From Thioalkalivibrio sp. ALMg11 (lineage in GTDB: Bacteria > Pseudomonadota > Gammaproteobacteria > Ectothiorhodospirales > Ectothiorhodospiraceae), in the NCBI RefSeq assembly GCF_000377905.1, contig NZ_KB898873.1:124001-188000 (forward strand): a DNA stretch of 64,000 nt, in the 5' to 3' direction. The notes below the pieces were generated by a model. That model had not been told where the DNA came from, made no database searches, and saw nothing but the letters and a program-made list of their open reading frames with translations. Positions 5,262 to 57,667 of this stretch are shown here, one piece after another; position 1 is the stretch's first letter; each line of letters starts with the position of its first letter. The position numbers and the translations under genes were made by a program.

Positions 5262-6199
5262 TGGAGAGCGCAACCATGGACGCAGCCACTATGGACCCAA
5301 CGCACGAACTGAACGGCTTTTACTGGGACGCGAACGATGCTGGAGAATCTGAACGAGACGCTGGGAGCGACCTTCCTTCCGACGATACTTTGGTGGGGTG
5401 GGATTGGAGTGGTGGCGCTTCTGATTTTCCCTCCGACGAGGCCCTTGCTGAGCTACTTGGTGAGTCAGGTTTTCACGCCGAGCGGGAGGGGGATCATCGT
5501 CGTTCTCTGGCAATGGACGGTCTGGGCGATCAAGAGCCTGATCGGTTCCCACAAGGCGTACTTCCGGCATCTATTGACGCCTCGCTCCAAGCTATTCCCG
5601 ACGCTCCGAGACGCGCGCAGAAGGGGCGACGGGAAAGCGGATCGAGACTGACCTTCCACATCCGCCCGGAGGATTGGGACGACCCGGTTCAGCGCGACCT
5701 CGTGCGGCTTCTTCAGCTCCGAATGAAGGAGATCATTGACCAGCGGCCCAGGGGGCGAGAATTCCTCGCGTGGGTCTTTTCCTGCGACCCCGAGGAGCCC
5801 CTGCCTTTCGATGAGTGCGCGAGGGCACTCGGGGCCGAGCCAAACAATATCCGGCTTCGCCTCCAGTCGTACCTCTATCGGCACTGGATTTACCTGAACC
5901 GCCCGCTGTCCGGGTTTTTCATTGCCCATCCCCCGCGCGACCTCATGGGGCAATGCCTATTCAACGGCGGCCCTCTCGGTGAGTTCATGGCGCTTCGCGT
6001 GTGGCTTCAGCCGGGCATCCCGTTGAGCCTCCTTATGCGCGCCGCGAAAACCGAGTTTCCAGACAGGAAGGAAATGGATTTCAAGGCCGCCGTGGAAGCG
6101 CTGCTCGAAAGCCGCCTCATGCTCGAAAACGCTGGCTCTAACCTCTACCTGGTCGGACACTATGGCTACCGCCTCGAACGAGAAGACCCCTGGCGATAA
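5261..6199 (+). CDS. Unknown protein downstream of traD; N-terminal half uncertain
   Basis: This frame starts at an ATG overlapping the traD stop and encodes 312 residues. The C-terminal two thirds, from about LTFHIRPEDW at 5650, looks like a genuine mostly helical domain ending in YRLEREDPWR. The N-terminal part is acidic and low in complexity. From 5337 to 5651 another frame has better codon usage and encodes a membrane protein (see the next entry). The real gene may therefore begin near 5648, at a CTG overlapping that stop, or a frameshift may join the frames. The position after traD resembles traJ of SXT-type elements, but I cannot show homology. Confidence 0.5.
   Translation: MESATMDAATMDPTHELNGFYWDANDAGESERDAGSDLPSDDTLVGWDWSGGASDFPSDEALAELLGESGFHAEREGDHRRSLAMDGLGDQEPDRFPQGVLPASIDASLQAIPDAPRRAQKGRRESGSRLTFHIRPEDWDDPVQRDLVRLLQLRMKEIIDQRPRGREFLAWVFSCDPEEPLPFDECARALGAEPNNIRLRLQSYLYRHWIYLNRPLSGFFIAHPPRDLMGQCLFNGGPLGEFMALRVWLQPGIPLSLLMRAAKTEFPDRKEMDFKAAVEALLESRLMLENAGSNLYLVGHYGYRLEREDPWR
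5337..5651 (+). CDS. Small membrane protein, overlaps the 5261-6199 frame
   Basis: A 104-residue frame with two convincing hydrophobic segments (about residues 13-45 and 52-68) and a basic C-terminus. Its codon choice (CTG, ATC, GAG, ACG) matches the rest of the window, while the overlapping frame uses GAT, GCT, TCT and GAA in this stretch, as expected for an out-of-frame reading of a membrane gene. The Shine-Dalgarno is weak, so translation may be coupled to traD. It is likely an inner-membrane accessory factor of transfer. Confidence 0.55.
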   Translation: MLENLNETLGATFLPTILWWGGIGVVALLIFPPTRPLLSYLVSQVFTPSGRGIIVVLWQWTVWAIKSLIGSHKAYFRHLLTPRSKLFPTLRDARRRGDGKADRD

Positions 6200-8087
6200 C
6201 GCACCCGCGATCGAACCGGCGGAATGGCTCCTCCATCTGCCGAAGGATTTTGTGGACTATCGCGAGGACGACTACCCCTTCGGTGTGGGCGACCGCTTCT
6301 GCGGCCTTGCCCGCGTCCTGACAGCCCCGAAGGCCAAGCGCGGCACTCGGCGCCCGATGTGGCAGTTTGACGTGGCAACGAGCACGCTGGAGCTGCGGGT
6401 TACCTACTTCGGGAAACGCCCGGAACACACGACCGACTGGAAGGACGTGAAGCCCGGCGCCCGCATCCTGCTCAAAGGCACGATCAACCAGTTCGGCCGT
6501 CAGTTCGTCCTCGATGGCGCCGAGCGAGTATCCCCGGCGATGTACGGCCGGATTGCCGCCCGGTACCGCCGGGGCGCCCTGAAGCGAGCGGCCTCCGCCA
6601 CCGTCGCCAAGCGCGTAGCCGAAGCACTGGAGGATGAGCGCCACCTGGAGCGGGCTTCCGAGCTTCTTCACGAGAGACTTGGCGCGGCCTCCCCTGGTCC
6701 CGCACCCCTGAATCAACTGCTGCTGGCCCTGCACGCCCCGGACTGCGAGCGCGACGGGCACCTGGCGATCCAGCGAGCCCGTCAGCTCTCCGCTCTCTCC
6801 ATCCTGAAGCGGCGCCCTCCTCCGGTGTCGGGCCGCCCCGGCGCTTGCGTAGCCATCGAGGACTGGCTGCGCGATCGCGCCGTGAGGGTACTGGAGGAGC
6901 GCACGGGGTTCTCCCTATCCGAATCCCAGCTCAAGGCGATCCACGGCCTTGTGGACGCCCTCCGGCGGGATCAGCCCACCCGAGCCCTGATCTCCGGCGA
7001 CGTAGGCTCCGGAAAGACGCTCCCGTACCTTGCGCTGGCCGTTCTGGCCCATACGGCCGGGGCGCGCGTAGCGGTGATGATCCCGAATGGGGTGTTGGCC
7101 GAACAGGTCTTTCGCGAGTGCCAGGAGGTGTTCCCCCGCGTGAACGCCACCCTGGTATCGAAGGGCGGCCTCAAGGGTGATCGAGACACGGGGCTCCTGA
7201 TCGGAACGACCGCCATTTCCGCCTACGCCAAGCGCTCGGGTTGGCGGGCGGATGTGCTGATCCTCGATGAGCAGCAAAAGCTCGGGCTCACGCAGAAGCA
7301 ACAGGTCATGCACGAGGACACCAACGTTATCGAGGCCACCGCGACGTGCATCCCTATGACCATGGGGCAGATCAAGCACGGCGACATGGACATCTACCGG
7401 CTCAAGCCGCATACCGAGAAGGACATCCGATCCTACATCCTGGGGGAGCAGGATCGGGCGCGGCTTGTCGATCACATCGAGAAGGAGATGGCAGAGGGCC
7501 GTCGGTGCGCGGTGATCTACCCAATCCGGAACCAGGACACGGAGCGCAAGCGCAGCGTCATCCATGCCGCCGAGGCATGGGCCGAGCGTTTCCCCGGTCA
7601 GGTGGCGTGCCTGCACGGGCAAATGACGCAGGAAGAAAAGACGGCTATCCTCCAGGGTGTACGAGACAAGGACACGCCGCTGCTGGTCGCCTCCTCGATT
7701 ATTGAGGTAGGGGTCACAATACCGGACCTCTCCACTTTGATTGTGGTTGATGCCGGGCGGTATGGAACGAGTACACTCCACCAGATGCGCGGACGGCTCG
7801 TGCGTCAGGGCGGCAAGGGGTTCTTCTTCATGCTGCCGGGCGTGGACACTCGTAACTCGGACGCGCTGACGGACGGCCAGGTGACAACGCTGGAGCGCCT
7901 GAGCCTTCTGCTGAGAACGCAGGATGGGTTCGAGCTGGCCGAGCTGGACATGGCCCAGCGGGGTTTTGGTGACCTGTTCAGCGAGGAAGCCGAGAAACAG
8001 CATGGGGCAACACAGGCCCCCTTTTATGGACTGAAGCTGACTCCCGAAGACTTCGACGGGGTGATCGCTCAGGAAAACGTGGCATGA
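6162..8087 (+). CDS. RecG-like superfamily 2 DNA helicase
   Basis: A 641-residue RecG-type helicase. An N-terminal OB/wedge-like region (residues 25-130) is followed by two RecA-like lobes. Walker A is GDVGSGKT near residue 279, motif II is DEQQ near 368 in place of DEAH/DEQH, and motif VI is in the QMRGRLVR stretch near 545. RecG enzymes remodel forks and Holliday junctions and unwind D- and R-loops. It overlaps the preceding frame by 38 bases and the next gene by four (ATGA), so it belongs to the traD operon. A plasmid-encoded RecG-like enzyme could process recombination or replication intermediates after entry. Confidence 0.85.
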   Translation: MATASNEKTPGDNAPAIEPAEWLLHLPKDFVDYREDDYPFGVGDRFCGLARVLTAPKAKRGTRRPMWQFDVATSTLELRVTYFGKRPEHTTDWKDVKPGARILLKGTINQFGRQFVLDGAERVSPAMYGRIAARYRRGALKRAASATVAKRVAEALEDERHLERASELLHERLGAASPGPAPLNQLLLALHAPDCERDGHLAIQRARQLSALSILKRRPPPVSGRPGACVAIEDWLRDRAVRVLEERTGFSLSESQLKAIHGLVDALRRDQPTRALISGDVGSGKTLPYLALAVLAHTAGARVAVMIPNGVLAEQVFRECQEVFPRVNATLVSKGGLKGDRDTGLLIGTTAISAYAKRSGWRADVLILDEQQKLGLTQKQQVMHEDTNVIEATATCIPMTMGQIKHGDMDIYRLKPHTEKDIRSYILGEQDRARLVDHIEKEMAEGRRCAVIYPIRNQDTERKRSVIHAAEAWAERFPGQVACLHGQMTQEEKTAILQGVRDKDTPLLVASSIIEVGVTIPDLSTLIVVDAGRYGTSTLHQMRGRLVRQGGKGFFFMLPGVDTRNSDALTDGQVTTLERLSLLLRTQDGFELAELDMAQRGFGDLFSEEAEKQHGATQAPFYGLKLTPEDFDGVIAQENVA

Positions 8088-8759: not shown

Positions 8760-9338
8760 TCAGCTCACCTTGAGCTGCTTGGACAATCGCTCGGTTAGCC
8801 GATCAAACCGCATGAGGGTTTCCGGGTCCGGCCGCGCCATCCCCTTTCGCCATCTGTAAACGCTATTGGCGTGTACCCCGATGAGGTCGGCGCCTTCCTT
8901 GTCGCTCTCGGGATCATCCAGAGGCAACCCGAGCTTCGTCCACCACTCGTTGACCAAATCGTTCATGTTCGCCGTCTTCAGGCGCTCTACGGCGTTCAGA
9001 CGCTCGGGGTCTTCGATCAGCTCCCGTGCGGGCTGCATGATCTCGTCTTCGATGTTCAGGATGCGGCCATTCTCGATATTCACGAGCTTGTCGCGGGAAA
9101 TCCCGATCGCCGCCGCGAACGACGCCTGAGACAGCCCCATCTTGTCGCGGATCGCCAGAAGCTCCCGCTGTTCCGGAGAACGGATGCGTCGCTTCTTCTC
9201 GCGGCGGGTCGCGCTCTCTGACGGGACCAGGGCGCCACCCAGGCGGCCCACGGCATTCATTCCCGAAGCTCGCTCCACCTTGACGCTACCCTTGGTGTTC
9301 TTCGGGAAAACGCTACCTGCGGCTCCCTTCTCTTTCAT
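8760..9338 (-). CDS. XRE-family regulator, short paralogue of the sigma/XRE protein
   Basis: A 192-residue DNA-binding protein. A basic N-terminus leads to an XRE helix-turn-helix (residues 58-92, with LSQASFAAAIGISRDKLVNIENG). A second domain at 126-185 contains DLVNEWWTKLGLPLDDP and another probable helix-turn-helix. The same domain pair forms the C-terminal half of the next upstream gene, so the two are paralogues and this one lacks the sigma-like part. The ATG at 9338 has a GGAGG site and overlaps the upstream stop (ATGA). It could compete with or modulate its larger partner. The in-frame extension upstream of 9338 is only the overlapping gene. Confidence 0.85.
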   Translation of the reverse strand: MKEKGAAGSVFPKNTKGSVKVERASGMNAVGRLGGALVPSESATRREKKRRIRSPEQRELLAIRDKMGLSQASFAAAIGISRDKLVNIENGRILNIEDEIMQPARELIEDPERLNAVERLKTANMNDLVNEWWTKLGLPLDDPESDKEGADLIGVHANSVYRWRKGMARPDPETLMRFDRLTERLSKQLKVS

Positions 9339-10270
9339 TTTGACGTTCCTCCGCTTGTTGGCTGAGCCAAATAAGCGAGAACGGCCGCGTGGCACTGAGC
9401 CAGGCCGCTCACCTTCGGCTTCTGATCTGCATTGTACCACCTCTGTAGCGTTTTGAACGTCTTGCCTGTGACTTCTTGTAGGAGTGGGTCGCACAGGGAT
9501 ACCCCCAGCATTTCCATCCACGACCCTACGATGTCCTTCGAGGAAGCGGTATGCAGCCAATCGAAATGCTGTGGCGGCCGAGCGCTCTCAGCGTAGTCCC
9601 GCGCGCGATCCTGGAATCGCTCGGGGGGCTTTGCCTTGCCGGTTTCGTAGGATTGGTACCTCCACGTTTCAATCCCGAGGCCCTGGGCCATTTCCTCTCG
9701 GGTGAGCCCCGCCCGATCCCGAATGGATTGCAGCGTCTCGTTCCCGCGCAGGTGCCGAGTGTCCTTCCGGCTCCGCTTCCGGGGCTCCAGCTCCTTCAAG
9801 GCTGAGCGCAGCGCCGAGGCGTCGATGCGGGCCGAACGCCGCGCCATTTCAACACCCTCGATCACCTCGAAGGGTCTGCTTTCGGCAGTCGCGGATTGAC
9901 CAGCCTGGGCCGATGCCTCCACGGCATCGAAGACCTCGCCTACGCTATAGACCTCGCGATGGTCGAACCGCTTGGTTCGCGCATTCGCGATGTTCTGAGC
10001 GCAGCCAAACAGGTAGGAAGACAACGAAGCCCCTGCCTCCGGATTCCAACCCCGCTTCTCAAACAGAAGGGCGAGACATTCCTGAGCCAAATCCTCCTCG
10101 CTCCCGAACAGGCCAAAGCGGCCCGCGACGTTGAATGCAATCCGCTCGACACGCGGCTGCACAAGGCAAGCAAACTCATTGGCATCCATGCGGCCTTCAA
10201 GCCACTCGCAAGCCGCTTGGTCCAACGCCGCATCCTCCTCGCGATACGGCAACTCCATCACCTCCATCAT
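9335..10270 (-). CDS. Sigma-70 region 2-like / XRE fusion regulator
   Basis: A 311-residue protein with an unusual domain order. Residues 33-103 match sigma region 2, including the EEDLAQECLALLFEKRGWNP core and the SYLFGCAQNIANART helix that in ECF sigma factors contacts the -10 element. There is no recognisable region 4. Instead an XRE helix-turn-helix lies at 176-218 and a second DNA-binding-like domain at 244-302 (DIVGSWMEMLGVSLCDP), shared with the 8760-9338 protein. Start ATG-ATG with GAGGAGGG upstream, overlapping the relaxase stop. I infer a plasmid transcription factor, perhaps an alternative sigma that uses XRE domains for promoter choice. Confidence 0.8.
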   Translation of the reverse strand: MMEVMELPYREEDAALDQAACEWLEGRMDANEFACLVQPRVERIAFNVAGRFGLFGSEEDLAQECLALLFEKRGWNPEAGASLSSYLFGCAQNIANARTKRFDHREVYSVGEVFDAVEASAQAGQSATAESRPFEVIEGVEMARRSARIDASALRSALKELEPRKRSRKDTRHLRGNETLQSIRDRAGLTREEMAQGLGIETWRYQSYETGKAKPPERFQDRARDYAESARPPQHFDWLHTASSKDIVGSWMEMLGVSLCDPLLQEVTGKTFKTLQRWYNADQKPKVSGLAQCHAAVLAYLAQPTSGGTSK

Positions 10271-12207
10271 CGCGAGCCCTCCTCGTACTGCGCGTACAAG
10301 TCGTCCTCGCTAAAACCCGCGCCTGACTCTCTGGCCGAGGCTGGATCGCTGGGGTTCCCGTCATTCTCTTGCTCTGTGACGGAAGCCCCCTCCGATGCCT
10401 CCTGCTCTTTGGGCGGAGCCTTGCGTTTCTTCTTGCGAGGCGGGAGAGCCTGCGACATGTATGCCGCAAAGGGGTCGTCGGCATCCTGGTCCGTCTCAGC
10501 CTCCTGGGGCTCGGCTTTTTCCTCGGCCTCACCCGCCCCGCGAGGGGGTTCCTCGGCCGGAGGTTCTGGACCCTCGGGATCAGCCTGCGGCCTCTCCTCG
10601 GCTTCTTCCGCTTCGGCCGGGCGCTTGCGTAGAGCGTGCTGCGGGAACACCGCACCCGTGATCCGGGGCGGCTTCGGCGCAGGCGACATGGTGCCAAGCA
10701 CCACCGGGAGCGTGTCCGGCGTGAACTCCAGAACAATCGCACTGTTCCAGCCCTGGTTGAGCACCTTCCCGGTATCCGGGTCGGTCGATTTCACCTTGAA
10801 CAGCGCGTTTTTCGCGTTCCACTCCCGCCCTTCGTGGCGGCGCACCAGAACCCCCTTGGCGTCCAGCGCTTCCAGGAGGGGGGTCGTAATCGGAAAGCGG
10901 CCGTCCCCGGCCTGCTCGAACGCTCGTTGCGCATCACCGTGGTACTCGCTCGCAAGCAGCTTCCGCGTGTCCGCCTCGTTGAGATACAGGCGCTTCCCGT
11001 CCCAAAAGCCGATCCGGTACTGCTTCTGTCGGCCGTTGATCGTTCCCGGCCGAGCAATGATCTCGCGGAGCCAATCCCACAACTGTCCGGCTTCGGCCGC
11101 CTGCTCGCGAGCGGCCTGCGCCTGCGCTTCGGTATCGCCCGAGGGGGTCGCGGCGGCCACCGAAGCGCCGGGCGCTGGATCGGCGCGACGCGGATTGTCG
11201 CCTGGGTGTGCTTCGCCGCCTTGCTCGCTCTCATAGAGAGAGCTGTCGCTTCCAGCTTCCTGCTGGGAGGGCGCGCGGGCGGCCTCAGCCTGACCCTCGG
11301 CCGGGGCCGGGGCCTCCGCAACAGGGAAGCGCTCGGGCAAGCCCTTGGCCCGCCGCCCCTCGTTCTCCGATGCCACTCGATCCGCGTGGATCAGGAACTC
11401 CATCAGCAAGCGCGCTCGATCCGTGGCGTGTTGCGGGATGTCCTGCGGGTGGTGCTCAAAGCTGAGCGCCATGATGAGATCGTTGTGCTCGTCCTCAGAC
11501 AGCTCCCACGACTCCTCCATGAGCGCTACCAGCCGCGCGCTCTCTCGGTCGTGATATGCCTTGCGACCAATCACCTTGGTATCGTCGCCGTTTTCGGTGC
11601 GAAAAGCGACGATCTTGCCTAGATCGTGCGCCAGAAGGACCAGCGGCATCAGCGGGTATGCGTCGGCATCCAGGCGCCACCCATCGTTGGGGTGATTCTT
11701 TCGGCTCAGTCGCCATTGTTCGACTTCCCGGAAGCCGGTTTCCACGACATTCAGGCAATGCTCGATCAGGGTGCAGCCACCATGACCGCCTGGTTCCGGG
11801 GCCGCCGGGAGGTCTGGACGCGCCGCCATCGTTTCCAGGACCGCCCGGAACAATCGGCGGTGGGCCTCGAAATCCTTGGCCCCGCTCTGGAGCCAGGCGT
11901 GAGTCATGGGCCAGCGCTCCTTGCTGAAGGAGTCCACCTTGCACCGCTTCGGCGGCTGGTAGCCTGGCACTGGCCCGATCGTCGAGCGCGCCATCTTGGC
12001 CGCACCACCCTTGAGGATCGCGGCGTTCGCGCTGCGAAGCCCGTAGGCCAGCCCGAACACCAGCAGCCCGGTCGCCCCGGCCACCATCGCCACGTCCAGA
12101 ACCCTGCCCACATTCGGGAGCGCGACCGGCATCCCGCCCCAGAACCAAAGGATTGCCCACCAGAAGGCGAAAACCACCATGGCGGGCCGAAGTACGCTTC
12201 TATGCAC
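10267..12207 (-). CDS. traI: MOBH-type relaxase candidate (HD domain, TraI_2-like)
   Basis: A 646-residue protein. Residues 9-57 contain two hydrophobic segments. A helical HD-type domain follows, with TLIEHCLNVVET near 148, LLAHDLGKI near 198 and EHH near 250. A long Ala/Glu/Pro-rich linker leads to a C-terminal domain (about 375-480, LWDWLREIIARPGTINGRQ) resembling the TraI_2 C-domain, then a charged tail. This plan fits MOBH relaxases of SXT/R391, and no other relaxase is visible in the window. Membrane segments are unexpected in a relaxase. The GTG start at 12207 follows GGGAGG. It overlaps the regulator gene downstream, so transfer and regulation are co-transcribed. Confidence 0.65.
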   Translation of the reverse strand: MHRSVLRPAMVVFAFWWAILWFWGGMPVALPNVGRVLDVAMVAGATGLLVFGLAYGLRSANAAILKGGAAKMARSTIGPVPGYQPPKRCKVDSFSKERWPMTHAWLQSGAKDFEAHRRLFRAVLETMAARPDLPAAPEPGGHGGCTLIEHCLNVVETGFREVEQWRLSRKNHPNDGWRLDADAYPLMPLVLLAHDLGKIVAFRTENGDDTKVIGRKAYHDRESARLVALMEESWELSEDEHNDLIMALSFEHHPQDIPQHATDRARLLMEFLIHADRVASENEGRRAKGLPERFPVAEAPAPAEGQAEAARAPSQQEAGSDSSLYESEQGGEAHPGDNPRRADPAPGASVAAATPSGDTEAQAQAAREQAAEAGQLWDWLREIIARPGTINGRQKQYRIGFWDGKRLYLNEADTRKLLASEYHGDAQRAFEQAGDGRFPITTPLLEALDAKGVLVRRHEGREWNAKNALFKVKSTDPDTGKVLNQGWNSAIVLEFTPDTLPVVLGTMSPAPKPPRITGAVFPQHALRKRPAEAEEAEERPQADPEGPEPPAEEPPRGAGEAEEKAEPQEAETDQDADDPFAAYMSQALPPRKKKRKAPPKEQEASEGASVTEQENDGNPSDPASARESGAGFSEDDLYAQYEEGSR

Positions 12208-12821: not shown

Positions 12822-12827
12822 GTGATA

Positions 12828-13841
12828 ATGACCATTAACACTTATAACGAGCCCGAAACGGATGCCAGGATCGGGGCCATCGGCTCCGAAGACGCCCAGA
12901 CCCGCCTCCTGGGCGCCTTTTCGGACTGGCTGAAGGGCGGTGACTTCGCCACTCCGTACTCGGAGGCCACGATTCGGGCCTATTCCCGCTGCGCGCGTCA
13001 ATTCATCGAGTTTGCGGCCTCCATGCACCTGATTCACGTCTCCGAGGCGACACAGCCGACCATCCGGGCTTTCGTGAACGAGCAGGCGCAAAACGTCAGC
13101 ACCTCGACCCGGAACCTCTGCATTTCCGCCGTGGACGCCTTTTTCGACTTTCTGGAGTTCGAGGGCATCCGCGAGGGCAATCCGGTCAAGAAGTACCGGG
13201 CCGAGCTGAAAAAGACACGACGAGGCGGGCGGACTGCAAAACGCCTCCCGGCCTTCCTGTACCCCAACGAGGTCGATCTGGTCATGGACACGCTGTTTGC
13301 GCGCAACCACACCAACCGGCTGCGCGATCTGGCCCTTGTGGGGCTGATCCTCGACTCGGGGCTACGATCCAGCGAAGTCCAAGCCCTGCGGGTGCAGGAC
13401 GCCAAAGACCTGCTGAACAACGGCGTACTGCGGGTAATCGGCAAGGGCGACAAGGAGCGGCTGGTCCGCCCTCTCGACCGGAACCGCGCGCACCTGATGG
13501 ACTACCTGGACAGCCTGGGCGAGAAACCCGACCCCGAGGAGCGCCTGTTCCGGGTGAGAACGGGCGCGGCCATGCGCCAGTGCAACCTCCACCACATCGT
13601 TCAGCGGGCGGTTTCTGAGGTAGGAATCGCGAAGCCTCAGACCGGCCCCCACCTCTTGCGGCACACCGCCGCGACCTTGATGCTCGCCTCGGGGATGTCC
13701 ATGCGCCGCGTGCAGGACAACCTCGGCCACGCGAGCCTGAACACCACGCAGCTCTACACGCATCTGGTGGACGTGGAGCCCAGCGAAGCCAGAGATTTCG
13801 ACCCAGCAGCGGAGGAGGGCCGCCGAATCGAGGGAAAATAG
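12828..13841 (+). CDS. Tyrosine recombinase, XerC/D-like
   Basis: A 337-residue tyrosine recombinase. The SAM-like N-terminal DNA-binding domain covers residues 25-125, and the catalytic domain follows. Visible catalytic elements are Arg in SGLRSSEV, Lys in GKGDKER, HLLRH, the later His in LGHASLNTT and the Tyr nucleophile in QLYTH. It probably resolves plasmid multimers, or integrates and excises the element. No att sites can be recognised, but four 22-bp-spaced repeats lie just downstream. The ATG is ten bases after AAGGA; a GTG six bases earlier is an alternative. Confidence 0.92.
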   Translation: MTINTYNEPETDARIGAIGSEDAQTRLLGAFSDWLKGGDFATPYSEATIRAYSRCARQFIEFAASMHLIHVSEATQPTIRAFVNEQAQNVSTSTRNLCISAVDAFFDFLEFEGIREGNPVKKYRAELKKTRRGGRTAKRLPAFLYPNEVDLVMDTLFARNHTNRLRDLALVGLILDSGLRSSEVQALRVQDAKDLLNNGVLRVIGKGDKERLVRPLDRNRAHLMDYLDSLGEKPDPEERLFRVRTGAAMRQCNLHHIVQRAVSEVGIAKPQTGPHLLRHTAATLMLASGMSMRRVQDNLGHASLNTTQLYTHLVDVEPSEARDFDPAAEEGRRIEGK

Positions 13842-14117: not shown

Positions 14118-14546
14118 CTACGCGGCGGCCAGGTCTTCGGCCAGCTCATCCCGGAGGATCGTCAGCTCGCGCGGGGCCGTGATGGCGAATCGGGCGGCAT
14201 CGGCCGAGCGGGGAGAGATTGCCAGCTCCACATCGAGGCCGGGGCGCCCGAGGTGGACCCGCTCTCCCCCGCCCACGCCGAGAACGAGTGTGCTGATCGG
14301 CCCGATATACTCGGGATCGCCCTGCTCGGCGGCTTCTTCAGCCTCCCTCTCCAGAGTCGCGGGATCAGGCAGCAGCGACTCCCGCCGCACCGGCATATCG
14401 CGCGGGGCCTCGACCATGATGCGAGGGCCGGAGGAGCCGACTGAGTAGGTCACCCGAACATCCGGGCCAATGCAGATCGCCTCGCCGGGGCGGCGGGTCA
14501 GCGCTAGGGTGGAACGGCCGTCATCGGCCTTGCTTGCGTCGTTCAT
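14118..14546 (-). CDS. Two-domain CsrA-like RNA-binding protein
   Basis: A 142-residue protein made of two CsrA-like domains in tandem. Residues 12-59 follow the CsrA pattern closely (LALTRRPGEAICIG, then RIMVEAPRDMPVRRESL), keeping the Arg positions of strand 1 and the conserved Arg of strand 5 that bind RNA. Residues 85-138 repeat the fold (TLVLGVGGGERVHLG, then FAITAPRELTILRDEL) but have lost the strand-1 Arg pair. Since CsrA works as a dimer whose sites combine strand 1 of one chain and strand 5 of the other, this may be a single-chain pseudodimer with one intact site. The start at 14546 has only a weak GGAA site. Confidence 0.82.
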   Translation of the reverse strand: MNDASKADDGRSTLALTRRPGEAICIGPDVRVTYSVGSSGPRIMVEAPRDMPVRRESLLPDPATLEREAEEAAEQGDPEYIGPISTLVLGVGGGERVHLGRPGLDVELAISPRSADAARFAITAPRELTILRDELAEDLAAA

Positions 14547-14921
14547 GTTCACATTTCCGTGTGATTGTGTATTGGCGAGCCCCGATCCGGGACTCACCCC
14601 ATACGCTACCGGGCGAAAAACGCGGGCGCAACCCCTAACTATGGTATAAATCACGGATTTTTGGGGGAATTTTCACCCTTTCTCGTGGCAAAATTGCCAC
14701 AAGGGGGCTGTTGATCGGGGGTGGGGTGCCGTGGGAATTGTGCCGCCGAGAGCCTGCGAGCGCTCCAGTGGCGCTAAAAACACCGGGGAGCGCTCGTTGG
14801 CTGCCGGATGCGCCTTTCGGGCGAACAACACGCCCCTGGCTGGTGTAAACTGGACGCCGTGCAGGAACCGCTCGAAAAACACCTCGGATTCTCCGATCCC
14901 TAGCGGATCGAAATGGGGTGG
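14547..14921. other. Region between the CsrA-like gene and the repeat array
   Basis: No convincing gene. It holds a TATGGTATAAAT stretch (near 14640-14650) that could serve either strand as a -10, a near-palindrome GTGGCAA/TTGCCAC with an AA centre at 14685-14700 that may be an operator, a GAGCGCTC repeat pair near 14760-14795, and an inverted GATCC/GGATC pair at 14895-14910. If the array is transcribed rightward, its leader is here. Confidence 0.4.
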
Positions 14922-15186
14922 GTGAAAATCACCGCTCGAAAGGGCGGTGGCTGAAAGCGGGAGGTAATCGCTGATGCCTGTTTTCCTGATTGGCCGTGAA
15001 AATCACCGCTCGAAAGGGCGGTGGCTGAAAGCGTCGATCACGGCCTCGACCTCCGCGCGCCCGTCATCAGGTGAAAATCACCGCTCGAAAGGGCGGTGGC
15101 TGAAAGATGAGAAGCGTGCCCTCATCCGTATCGCGGATGCCCGTTGTAATTCACCGCCTCGCAGAGTGCTGGGTGGTGGCTGGAAG
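14922..15186 (+). CRISPR. Orphan CRISPR-like mini-array, three perfect repeats plus one degenerate
   Basis: Three identical 36-base repeats at 14922-14957, 14996-15031 and 15071-15106 are separated by unrelated spacers of 38 and 39 bases. A 36-base third spacer leads to a degenerate terminal copy at 15143-15186 that keeps CACCGCC, GGTGGTGGCTG and GAAG. Each repeat contains CACCGCTC-GAAA-GGGCGGTG, a perfect 8-bp stem (one G-T pair) with a GNRA tetraloop, and ends in GCTGAAAG, like the 5-prime handles of type I/III crRNAs. Hairpin, handle and decayed last repeat all indicate rightward transcription. No cas gene lies in the window. Confidence 0.75.
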
Positions 15187-15227
15187 CGAGACGGGAAGAC
15201 CTCCATCGAACCGGAGATCGCTGGGAA

Positions 15228-15257
15228 AGTCACGGCCCTCATGTGAGGGCCGTGACT
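15228..15257. terminator. Perfect 14-bp inverted repeat downstream of the array
   Basis: AGTCACGGCCCTCA and its exact complement are separated by TG. It lies 42 bases after the last degenerate repeat. No T run follows on either strand, so it may be a transcript-stabilising hairpin, a weak terminator or a protein site. Confidence 0.5.
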
Positions 15258-15397
15258 ACCTCCGCGTGACCGCTGGGTTGGCACCTCGCGCAATCTGCGC
15301 TGGTTTCTTGATCGGATCGCGGCCATACAAATTGCCCGCGATGGAAGTCACTGATTTTTCGGTTGCAATTTAATTGATCGTTTCTTGATTCAGTGCC

Positions 15398-16447
15398 TTA
15401 CTTGCGCTGCGCCTGGGGTCTAAGGGGAGCCCCGGTCAAGGTGACATGATCGAAAGAATAGACATGTTCGTTCGGGGCGTAATTACAGCGTCCGACGAAC
15501 CGGCCGGAAAACTCTTTTCGCCCCCCGCTCACTAGGAGAGAGCCCCCGCAGACAGGGCATGTTCCCCTGTATAGCGCCAAATGGAGCGAATTTCGCCCCC
15601 CACTTGAACCGGGCCGAAGCTCAAGCAAATACCCATCACCCGCATCAAAACGAAGTGGTTGAAGCCACCAAGGCGCACGAATCAACCTATCCCTGCCGAT
15701 CTTGTAAATCGGAAAAACCATCCAAAGCGCGGCTGCCAAGGCCATTAAAGAACCCGCCATACTTTGCGCGGAATCGCCGCCATCGAATGCAAACACCATG
15801 AACACCAAGATCGCCGCGATCGAGTAGAGGCCGATGAAGGCCGCTATGATGCCCAGCCCGGCCAGCCTCCATCCGTAAAGCCCCCCTCCAGTCAGGGTCG
15901 AGACGAGCAATCCTGGTGGGCGGGCGCCTTTCTCAAGGCGATACTCTACGCCGCCAATAGGGGGCGCATAAATTGCTTGGGGGGCGCCCGCCCACACAAG
16001 CCGAAACCCATAACTCGCGTGGCGTCCCGCTCCACCCAACCCGGAATCGTTCGTCAACTCCAGGGTTTCGCCCAACCCCGCCCTCCGGAACACGCCCTTT
16101 ATCGCCTCAGACCTCTGCTCGCAAAGCCGCTTCCACGAGTTCCGAATGGCTCGGCTCCTATCCCCGCTCTCGTCGGGAATCGGCTTACCACCACTCGATG
16201 TGCGCCCCCAGAATCCCGTTTCCGGATCAATCGCTTCGGCTATTTCCTTCGTCGTGAACAAGGCTCTATCTCGATCGGGGCTAGAGCCCTGGGCCAACTC
16301 GCAAAGCGTCTTGAGAAGGACCACGGGGCGATCACAGGGGTCGGTCCAGCGAGAAACCTCGGAGGCAAGGATTCGGGCTGCTTCAGGAGTAGACAAAGGG
16401 GTTCTAGAACCCTTCTGCACCTGTTTCCTCGATACGCTTTCAACCAT
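15398..16447 (-). CDS. Membrane-anchored zinc-site protein of unknown function
   Basis: A 349-residue protein. The soluble N-terminal half (1-165) looks like a winged-helix or effector domain with a TTKEIAEAID segment. Two membrane helices follow (about 190-222 and 228-250). The C-terminal part carries TCPVCGG near 296 and GRCNY near 318, a probable zinc site. Start ATG with a GGAG five bases upstream. It is divergent from the CoiA-like nuclease across a palindromic operator. Cytoplasmic sensor, membrane helices and a zinc site recall membrane effectors of phage-defence pairs, but no family is recognised. Confidence 0.7.
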   Translation of the reverse strand: MVESVSRKQVQKGSRTPLSTPEAARILASEVSRWTDPCDRPVVLLKTLCELAQGSSPDRDRALFTTKEIAEAIDPETGFWGRTSSGGKPIPDESGDRSRAIRNSWKRLCEQRSEAIKGVFRRAGLGETLELTNDSGLGGAGRHASYGFRLVWAGAPQAIYAPPIGGVEYRLEKGARPPGLLVSTLTGGGLYGWRLAGLGIIAAFIGLYSIAAILVFMVFAFDGGDSAQSMAGSLMALAAALWMVFPIYKIGRDRLIRAPWWLQPLRFDAGDGYLLELRPGSSGGRNSLHLALYRGTCPVCGGSLLVSGGRKEFSGRFVGRCNYAPNEHVYSFDHVTLTGAPLRPQAQRK

Positions 16448-55720: not shown

Positions 55721-56103
55721 CTCAGGGGGACAAATACCCCCTCTCAGGGGGACAAATACCCCCTCTCAAGGGGACAAATGCCCCCTTCTCAGGGGGACAA
55801 ATACCCCCTCTCAGGGGGACAAATACCCCCTCTCAAGGGGACAAATGCCCCCTCGCTTCGCGGGGCGGGATGTCTCTCAGGGGGACAAATACCCCCTCGG
55901 TTTTTTGTGACTGTCACTGTCACTGTGCTTGTGAATGTTACGGGTGCTGAGGCCAGGCACAGGCTCTCAGGGGGACAAATACCCCCTCACCTTGGAGCCC
56001 CACCGCTCTCAGGGGGACAAATACCCCCTCACCTAGCCAGAGGGGCCGGTTTCTCATGCGTCTTGGTCGGGGCGCATGGGCTTCAAGGGGACAAATACCC
56101 CCT
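55721..56103 (+). repeat. oriV: Ten origin iterons (oriV)
   Basis: A 22-bp unit with core GGGGACAAATACCCC (G in place of T at some AAATGCCCC copies) starts at 55721, 55743, 55765, 55788, 55810, 55832, 55876, 55966, 56008 and 56082. The first six form two tight triplets with 22-bp period; the rest are spaced out. The core has GGGG/CCCC dyad symmetry. This is the arrangement bound by Rep_3-type initiators, and a rep gene starts 146 bases later. A TGACTGTCACTGTCACTG stretch lies between iterons 7 and 8. Confidence 0.92.
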
Positions 56104-56248: not shown

Positions 56249-57667
56249 ATGGGATCAGAAGCGGTCGAGGGTGAGGTTGCCCCGAAGAACCCCGAAAAGA
56301 GCATGGTGGTGAAGGCCAACGCCTTCGTTGAGGCGGCTTATTCGCTGAACATGATGGCAACGCGGGTTCTGTTGACGACGATCGCCCAGGTGGATCGCTC
56401 CAGCGAGATCACGGAGACGCGCATCTTCAGCGTGTCGGTGGAAGACCTGCGGCGCCTGTTTCCGCCTTTGAGAAACGCGAGCGGGGGGTGGCTTTATCGC
56501 GAGCTGAAGAAGGCCGCCGACGAGCTTTATGAAGCTCAGCTCGTGTTCTGCGGAAAACCGAACGAGAAGCCCGATCGCGGCGCGGAGCTGGACGTGGGCC
56601 GCTGGGTACAGCGCGCTCGCTACATTCCCTCGGAAGGCCGCGTCGAGCTTCGGTTTGCTTATGACGTGTTGCCGTTCCTCCAGAACCTTTCGGGCCATTT
56701 CCTCCAATACGACCTCCAGTTCGTCGCCCGGATGGGGTCGCCGTACTCGGTAAGGATGTATGAGCTGCTGGCGTCCTATCGCCGCTGGTCCGAGGTCACG
56801 GTATCGCTCGAAGACCTCCGAAGGATGCTCCGTCTCGAAGACAAGTATCCGGCCTGGAAGGACTTTCGGCGGCGGATCATTCAGCCAACGGTGGACGAGA
56901 TCAACGCGATGTCGGACATGCGGCTGAGCTACAAGCCGGTTCGCGAGGCGAAATGGACCGTGGCGGTCTGTTTTCAGATGGAAAGGCAGACGCCCCCGAT
57001 TCCCGAGCTGATCGACAGCGCTCTGGAGGCGAATCCAGAAGGCGACACCCGCAAGACCAAAGCTGAAAAGCCGTCACCTGCCGCGCAGCCGCAGGAGAGC
57101 GAGAACCCCGCCCCGGCCGAATACGCGGAGGCTGAAAGTCAGGCCGAGGCGTATGAGCCCCTACCCCTCCTCGATGCCGAACCGATGGAGCTGCCCCTGT
57201 ACATCGAGGAGCCCATCCCATCCGAACCGGCACCTGAACCGGCCAAGCCGCAGGCCAACACCGAAACACCCCCCAAGAAGACCGTAAAGAAGACTCAGAC
57301 CCAAGGAACCCGTCTGCCGGACGATTGGGTTCTGCCCGCCGAGTGGCGCGAGTGGGCCGCCGAGCAGGCCAAGGCCAAAGGGGCCGCCCTGAGTGACGCG
57401 GAGATCGAGGAGATTGGCGAGGTTTTCGCGGATCACTGGCGCAGCAAATCAGGAAAGGAGGCCCGGAAACTGGATTGGCTCGCGACCTGGCGGAACTGGG
57501 TGCGGCGTGAACTCCAGTGGAAGAAGGAGCGCGCGGGCCGGTTCGGAGGTGCGGGTGCAAAAGCCACGGGAGACCGGGTGAGTGCCGTGAGGACAGCCGA
57601 GCAGATGGCTGAGCAGCTAGAAAACGAGCCCGAAGACCTGCGTGCAGCGGTCTTCGGTCAGAGGTAG
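56249..57667 (+). CDS. rep: Rep_3-family initiator with DnaT-like C-terminal domain
   Basis: A 472-residue initiator. Residues 15-250 are Rep_3 (NAFVEAAYSLNMMATRVLLTTIAQVD, the SVSVEDLRRLFP wing and the VRMYELLASYRRW second half). After an acidic Pro-rich linker (about 260-345), residues 353-425 (LPDDWVLPAEWREWA, then KLDWLATWRNWVRREL) resemble the DnaT/phage-O-associated C-terminal domain. Rep_3 proteins are normally 230-330 residues. With a dnaC-like gene next, the tail probably helps load the helicase. AGGTGG precedes the start. Confidence 0.88.
   Translation: MGSEAVEGEVAPKNPEKSMVVKANAFVEAAYSLNMMATRVLLTTIAQVDRSSEITETRIFSVSVEDLRRLFPPLRNASGGWLYRELKKAADELYEAQLVFCGKPNEKPDRGAELDVGRWVQRARYIPSEGRVELRFAYDVLPFLQNLSGHFLQYDLQFVARMGSPYSVRMYELLASYRRWSEVTVSLEDLRRMLRLEDKYPAWKDFRRRIIQPTVDEINAMSDMRLSYKPVREAKWTVAVCFQMERQTPPIPELIDSALEANPEGDTRKTKAEKPSPAAQPQESENPAPAEYAEAESQAEAYEPLPLLDAEPMELPLYIEEPIPSEPAPEPAKPQANTETPPKKTVKKTQTQGTRLPDDWVLPAEWREWAAEQAKAKGAALSDAEIEEIGEVFADHWRSKSGKEARKLDWLATWRNWVRRELQWKKERAGRFGGAGAKATGDRVSAVRTAEQMAEQLENEPEDLRAAVFGQR

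Follow-up and report, generated by a model that had tools for sequence, protein, structure and literature searches.

Plasmid and phage CRISPR systems that lack Cas1 and Cas2 can obtain spacers in trans, as reported for type IV-A3 plasmids, which acquire them through the type I-E system of the host (Benz 2024, via PMC11656645). As portrayed there, these plasmids resemble the array described here in being mobile CRISPR systems without acquisition genes of their own that depend on host Cas1-Cas2, whereas at our locus the borrowed module would be the type I-G Cas4/1 and the effector genes are missing too. Viral CRISPR mini-arrays, as outlined in PMC11656645, are likewise short, cas-less and carried on mobile elements, but they are described there with repeats identical to those of the host, and no further array with our repeat was found in its own host or in 95 relatives. 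Type IV-A with an array was defined on pTK9001, a plasmid of Thioalkalivibrio K90mix, according to PMC7434947; type V-U systems are said to lack acquisition genes typically (PMC11013384); and the PAM of type I-G (formerly I-U), which has a Cas4/1 fusion, is reported as TTN (PMC9638904).

The locus under study lies in a window of 64,000 nt (C3:124001-188000 of an 18-contig genome that is 99.96% complete), to which all positions given without a contig or locus name refer. It shares with the type IV-A system of pTK9001 the nearest repeat of 51, a similar repeat fold, the same leader, the same 125-nt gap between leader element and first repeat, and decayed distal repeats; in contrast, pTK9001 owns DinG, Cas6, Csf1, Csf2 and Csf3, none of which was found for the window, and the two repeats differ. 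With type I-G systems it has in common a leader inverted repeat, a half-site at -51 and one protospacer flank that fits TTN, but it has neither Cas4/1 nor an I-G repeat, and its gap of 125 nt compares with 147 and 144 nt in two I-G loci of the same genus. Because the defining cas genes of both systems were tested for and not found, the array is a member of neither type IV-A nor type I-G. A sequence-only reading of this DNA had placed the array in type I or III, an assignment that we do not retain given that the nearest repeats are type IV-A.

The array and its carrier element

The stretch at 14922-15186 is a real CRISPR array, in agreement with that first reading. Three letter-identical 36-nt repeats, GTGAAAATCACCGCTCGAAAGGGCGGTGGCTGAAAG, occupy 14922-14957, 14996-15031 and 15071-15106 on the plus strand (start-to-start distances of 74 and 75), so that exact direct repeats within 24-40 nt are combined with unique spacers of similar size. 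Spacer 1 (14958-14995, plus strand) has 38 nt and spacer 2 (15032-15070, plus strand) has 39 nt, both as first read, while spacer 3 (15107-15144, plus strand) has 38 nt rather than the 36 given earlier, a length that hinges on the start chosen for the decayed repeat. That degenerate terminal repeat, at 15145-15186 on the plus strand, has a local score of 17 compared with a best of 12 in 200 shuffles. The repeat folds into a 9-pair stem capped by a 4-nt GAAA loop (8 pairs if the terminal U-G is left out) and followed by a tail of 7-8 nt, at -15.3 kcal/mol, and none of 200 shuffles is as good (two of the three identical copies were folded). The hairpin with its GAAA loop, the GAAAG-type tail and the decayed distal end had all been recognized correctly from the letters. 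Just past the decayed repeat, window 15210-15260 holds a strong 13-bp hairpin (z -5.41), which may be one more decayed repeat or some other structure; the inverted repeat at 15225-15257 is a possible fifth decayed copy, and it was left uncounted because the best of 200 shuffles also reaches its score of 12.

The same genome showed no second array, and when the complete array was compared with 95 relatives the matches were weak, the best (E 0.006) covering 25 nt with 92% identity; these were set aside, with none better than E 0.006 and many falling within the GC-rich spacer 2. Rfam models at their gathering scores gave no match across the window, and a sigma-70 scan of 14500-15500 found no promoter. 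The search of the spacers against plasmid and phage databases that had been suggested was run, and none of the three has a convincing match. Against plasmids (E up to 1, inside a 701-nt query) spacer 2 gave two matches, at E 0.2 and 0.7, and the best phage match (E up to 10), at E 0.05, was rejected, since it covers 48 nt at 79% identity spanning repeat 2 and spacer 2. Exact pieces of 21-22 nt from spacers 1 and 3 had zero matches in IMG/VR, and three viral contigs found there for spacer 2 were rejected with 9-12 mismatches over all 39 bases, leaving this spacer with partial GC-rich matches only. The evidence named in advance as able to argue against a CRISPR array is therefore divided: a similar repeat does occur beside a complete type IV-A locus, with a shared leader, and the spacers remain without a convincing match.

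The array had also been taken to be plasmid-carried. In this assembly, its carrier is an element of ~90 kb that has inserted into a tRNA-Met gene (C3:115303-115379). Genes with DnaG and sigma-70 domains precede this tRNA gene, which is followed by an MmeI-like gene and then a phage-type integrase. A 47-base copy of the 3' part of the tRNA-Met gene, with 4 differences, lies roughly 90 kb away at about C3:205670, where ARAGORN detects no complete tRNA; tRNA-derived direct repeats at both ends together with an integrase identify the carrier as an integrative element. Between these ends lie conjugation genes of six families (TraG N-terminal, TraH, TraC, TrbI-like, TraN and TraU; 32649-53934, minus strand) and a Rep_3 initiator gene (56249-57667). 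The element also encodes a tyrosine recombinase (12822-13841, plus strand; PF00589, 5.9e-29) and, adjoining the array, a CsrA-domain gene (14118-14546, minus strand; Pfam PF02599, 2.3e-18) with its ATG at 14546 and an open frame that extends to a GTG at 14654. Genome G020 holds a related element with Rep_3-like matches and a csrA-like gene of 49% identity; no CRISPR array was found within the 20 kb examined there, a short tandem repeat being visible by eye only.

Several other features of the element were seen in passing. The gene at its left end, adjoining the tRNA-Met attachment site, is of the MmeI restriction-modification type (L026:11637-14387), and iteron-like repeats (TCAGGGGGACAAATACCCCC) are present at window 55732-56103, upstream of the Rep_3 initiator gene. 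On the minus strand, 9335-10270 encodes a protein with a helix-turn-helix domain (Pfam) whose N-terminal part looks sigma-factor-like by eye, and 10267-12207 encodes a 646-aa protein without a Pfam match, possibly an HD-domain conjugation protein to judge from its resemblance.

A type I-G leader ahead of the array

The conserved leader upstream of the array was absent from the sequence-only reading. Its distal element, an inverted repeat GCGAGCGCTCC...GGGGAGCGCTCG at 14756-14796 on the plus strand, ends 125 nt before repeat 1 and is indicated by blastn, by pattern scans and by its fold (z -3.89); the proximal half-site GGAACCGCTCGAAAAA, at 14864-14879 on the same strand, has a CTCG that starts 51 nt before repeat 1. 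When 14700-15400 was compared with plasmids using blastn, 79 nt upstream of the array matched pTK9001 between csf3 and its array, and 55 nt matched a Methylocalor plasmid ahead of an 18-repeat array. Alignment of the window and pTK9001 leaders gives 120 identical positions in 203 columns, with a score of 131.5 compared with at most 89 in 200 shuffles. The Methylocalor leader, used as a query, led to two Azospirillum thermophilum plasmids whose arrays begin 148 nt past the element, with no annotated cas gene within 6 kb, their gene tables being incomplete; a Streptomyces plasmid match (E 0.6) had no array and was set aside. These Azospirillum thermophilum and Methylocalor plasmids (L030 and L031:6002-6600; L012:4016-5490) combine I-G-like repeats and the I-G leader with no cas gene annotated nearby.

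Scans of genome contigs with a degenerate pattern for the leader inverted repeat gave 69 matches in 68 loci, and 47 of the matches have an array 100-200 nt downstream (at least 250 nt of downstream sequence being present for 63 of the 69). For at least 31 of these 47, a Cas4/1-like gene is found upstream in the same orientation, a lower bound from tblastn with one query. Ten loci were picked for an HMM test; an open reading frame was recovered in eight, one fragment of 157 aa was left out, and all seven proteins submitted exceed the NCBIfam Cas4g/Cas1g cut-off, the assignment to subtype I-G resting on the NCBIfam name. The leader-bearing type I-G arrays span several phyla. The genome scan yielded 39 leader-linked repeats whose consensus was clean and 34-38 nt long; CATTGAAG(N) or something close to it ends 29 of these, and the remaining endings include actinobacterial ones such as CATAGCGGC. 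The other 22 of the 69 matches have no array 100-200 nt downstream, and five of these have a Cas4/1-like gene upstream. The element is therefore conserved with cas-linked arrays and is found before I-G arrays, and it marks type I-G leaders.

A second pattern, applied to 47 genomes of the family, matched five, namely those of the window, K90mix, G006, G018 and G026, and a reversed-pattern control gave 0 matches. K90mix belongs to the same genus as the host of the window, and in G029 csf2 and the leader lie at the coordinates of pTK9001. Of 30 genomes in the genus, only G006, G018 and G026 have a Cas4g/Cas1g above the cut-off. Such a gene is also present in five further family genomes that escape this pattern, and in three of them (L018, L019 and L020) a diverged version of the leader layout is visible by eye. 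Within type IV, the exact 8-base core GAGCGCTC stands ahead of an array only in pTK9001 among eight loci scanned, and a looser pattern has zero matches in eleven other type IV stretches, which tells against a general rule. By their sequences, the window and pTK9001 arrays are chimaeras in which a type I-G leader precedes a type IV-A-like repeat; these two cases from one genus may represent a single event. Viral contigs provide a parallel case. The first pattern matched five of them, three with an array behind the element and two without, and the second pattern matched the same three (L040, L041 and L042), in each of which a Cas12u1 (5e-86; 3.9e-41) or Cas12u3-like (2.5e-17) protein precedes the array. 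The gap is 136-137 nt in two of these contigs, and in L042 the first occurrence of the repeat core is 141 nt past the element. In L041 and L042, the leader inverted repeat falls inside the effector open frame, at its 3' end.

Across 54 leader-bearing arrays, the distance separating the element from the first repeat takes values of 125-130 nt (21 arrays), 135-139 nt (7) and 144-149 nt (26), with none in between; two Azospirillum soli loci have gaps of 147 nt and L047 one of 126 nt. In 45 of the 54, the first base of a CTCG or ATCG falls between -49 and -52, a count computed before three gap values were corrected. The vector length at a period of 10.5 is 0.61, which is reached by none of 2000 uniform draws, although periods of 10 and 11 are nearly as good and the loci share descent. 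This distribution is a hint of helical phasing and hence of a DNA-binding signal; phasing in CRISPR leaders has reportedly been the subject of an earlier paper. From its co-occurrence with Cas4/1 genes, we infer that the leader is used by Cas4/1. The type I-G leader may be a shared docking site at which host Cas4/1-Cas2 writes mobile arrays of differing effector types (pTK9001 IV-A, viral Cas12u1/V-M and Cas12u3-like, and the cas-less array of the window), the -51 half-site facing the same side of the helix as the distal inverted repeat, a proposal for which we see about an even chance. No I-G leader is described before a type IV or V array among the literature matches listed, and the motif itself may already be contained in Santiago-Frangos 2021 or Buyukyoruk 2025. 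An I-G leader shared by IV-A, viral Cas12 and cas-less arrays would give a concrete, testable answer for other systems to the question of how such arrays acquire spacers, and it offers a handle in the search for orphan arrays.

Absence of cas genes and the origin of the array

The sequence-only reading was right that no cas genes stand beside the array, as none of the searched families is present. Csf2, Cas1, RAMP-type Cas7 and Cas4g/Cas1g, the four families that the genome-wide search covered, all gave zero matches in the host genome, and for these families the idea that the present host donates Cas proteins does not hold up. Neither the csf genes and DinG that a type IV-A locus would have nor the Cas4/1 fusion of type I-G was found, both Cas4g/Cas1g and Cas1 being without a match. 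PADLOC was run on 10 window proteins; a match of 10267-12207 to a Cas3 model (E 2.5e-5) was not read as a cas gene, and neither was a DEAD-box helicase at 6162-8087 that matches DinG, Cas3 and other helicase models (best 1.3e-6). K90mix has no Cas4g/Cas1g match and one other Cas1 match.

The explanation that we favor, without holding it to be better than evenly balanced between right and wrong, is that of an IV-A-like orphan array on an integrated element with conjugation genes, into which spacers are inserted in trans by the I-G Cas4/1-Cas2 of a host and which is read by a co-resident IV-A complex. In a host with a type I-G system, Cas4/1-Cas2 would add spacers to the array through the leader; since Cas4g/Cas1g is absent from both the genome of the window and K90mix, such acquisition would have taken place in other hosts. 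Should a pTK9001-like IV-A element be co-resident, its Cas6 and Csf proteins would process the transcript and use the crRNAs, although Cas6 of pTK9001 itself may fail on the window repeat because the two repeats differ at many positions. In the sequenced host, neither the I-G nor the IV-A partner is found, and the array should therefore be silent there.

The main rival holds that the array is a decayed remnant of a former pTK9001-like IV-A locus that lost its cas genes, so that the leader and short array are dead. Just three intact repeats and a decayed end are left, the window leader aligns to the one behind csf3 in pTK9001, and the searched cas families are all missing from the genome, as such decay would predict. 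The three repeats, however, are letter-perfect and both leader parts stand at canonical positions. Moreover, searching the window and 120 kb around it by tblastn with the five pTK9001 proteins yielded nothing below E 0.2 and no csf remnant, and the related G020 element has a csrA-like gene without an array in the 20 kb examined. We consider a remnant possible but rather doubtful on balance.

Conflict and kinship with pTK9001

A second feature absent from the sequence-only reading is a pTK9001 spacer aimed at this element. Spacer 7 of the pTK9001 IV-A array matches 14557-14595 on the plus strand exactly (39/39), with TTT as the immediate 5' flank, and no other match to window 1-25000 came up when 72,556 plasmid records were searched with megablast. 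The 37-base core of this spacer, allowing up to 3 mismatches, is found in 2 of 96 genomes, those of the window and K90mix. Spacer 1 of pTK9001 was rejected as a further link to the genus (8 mismatches of 36). Elements of this kind have met, since pTK9001 stores a perfect spacer against the window element, and two mobile elements of one genus are linked by this recorded conflict. The longer 5' flank of the protospacer, CACATTT, fits the type I-G PAM TTN, a single flank of this form having a chance of about 1 in 16; type IV-A interference prefers AAG-like PAMs. With the ATG as the start of the csrA-like gene, the protospacer starts 11 nt upstream of it; with the GTG as the start, it lies inside the gene. 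Type IV-A is reported to suppress gene expression, and an effect on the csrA-like gene is therefore plausible.

This conflict could be read differently, with the transcribed repeats acting as an RNA decoy, an anti-CRISPR that sequesters the Cas6 or Csf complexes of competing IV-A plasmids, pTK9001 among them. Anti-CRISPR RNAs that imitate repeats have been described (PMC10651486), and both the perfect spacer and the similar repeat layout would suit such a role. A decoy, however, needs neither a leader nor real spacers, and the window repeat is divergent from that of pTK9001; we regard this as improbable.

The kinship of the repeats argues for the orphan IV-A-like array that we prefer. Among 51 repeats drawn from pTK9001, other IV-A loci and leader-bearing loci, the type IV-A repeat of pTK9001 ranks first against that of the window (z 4.56, 300 shuffles), and ranks 2-4 are also IV-A (Aromatoleum twice, with one repeat in two arrays, and Azospira, as a consensus of two copies). 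For the type IV arrays in this comparison, 5 of 13 consensuses were fragmentary and left out, and no array was obtained from three type IV stretches. By similarity, the window repeat is thus IV-A-like. The pTK9001 repeat has a similar layout (a stem of 8-9 pairs, a 4-nt loop and a 7-8-nt tail) with a UGUG loop in place of GAAA, and it differs from the window repeat at many positions. Its array has about eight repeats, and PADLOC identifies a DinG helicase, Cas6, Csf1, Csf2 and Csf3 on pTK9001.

The same comparison bears on the suggestion that the array is an orphan of type I-G whose repeat is unusual, served by I-G effectors. Its leader is indeed type I-G, and plasmids of Azospirillum thermophilum and Methylocalor do carry arrays in which I-G-like repeats follow this leader and no cas genes are annotated nearby. 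The window repeat, however, is not of the I-G kind, as it does not have the common I-G ending CATTGAAGC or its relatives, and I-G repeats score below IV-A ones (best z 2.76). In addition, its tail of 7-8 nt after the stem contrasts with the cut 4 nt past the stem and the 8-nt handle given for the I-G nuclease in PMC9638904, and we judge this reading very unlikely. That the repeats are not CRISPR at all and serve as a CsrA sponge for the neighboring csrA-like gene is scarcely credible and was rejected, as the intact repeats contain no GGA (of the three in the 267-nt array, two fall in spacers and one in the decayed repeat) and the leader, spacing and spacers all fit CRISPR, leaving the adjoining CsrA-domain gene as the one point in its favor.

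A class-wide search for Csf2 in 369 genomes returned one locus above the cut-off (L118) and one weaker full-length match (L119). No array was detected in the former and a short one is present in the latter, neither with the leader by the patterns used; one loose leader-pattern match in L118 was discarded as chance-like. On pTK9001 itself, a second decayed cas-less mini-array with the IV-A repeat of that plasmid is visible at L113:22578-22840 (pTK9001 about 77,580-77,840), with ~4 copies by eye, the best having 5 mismatches of 36, downstream of an annotated Xre/RES toxin-antitoxin pair.
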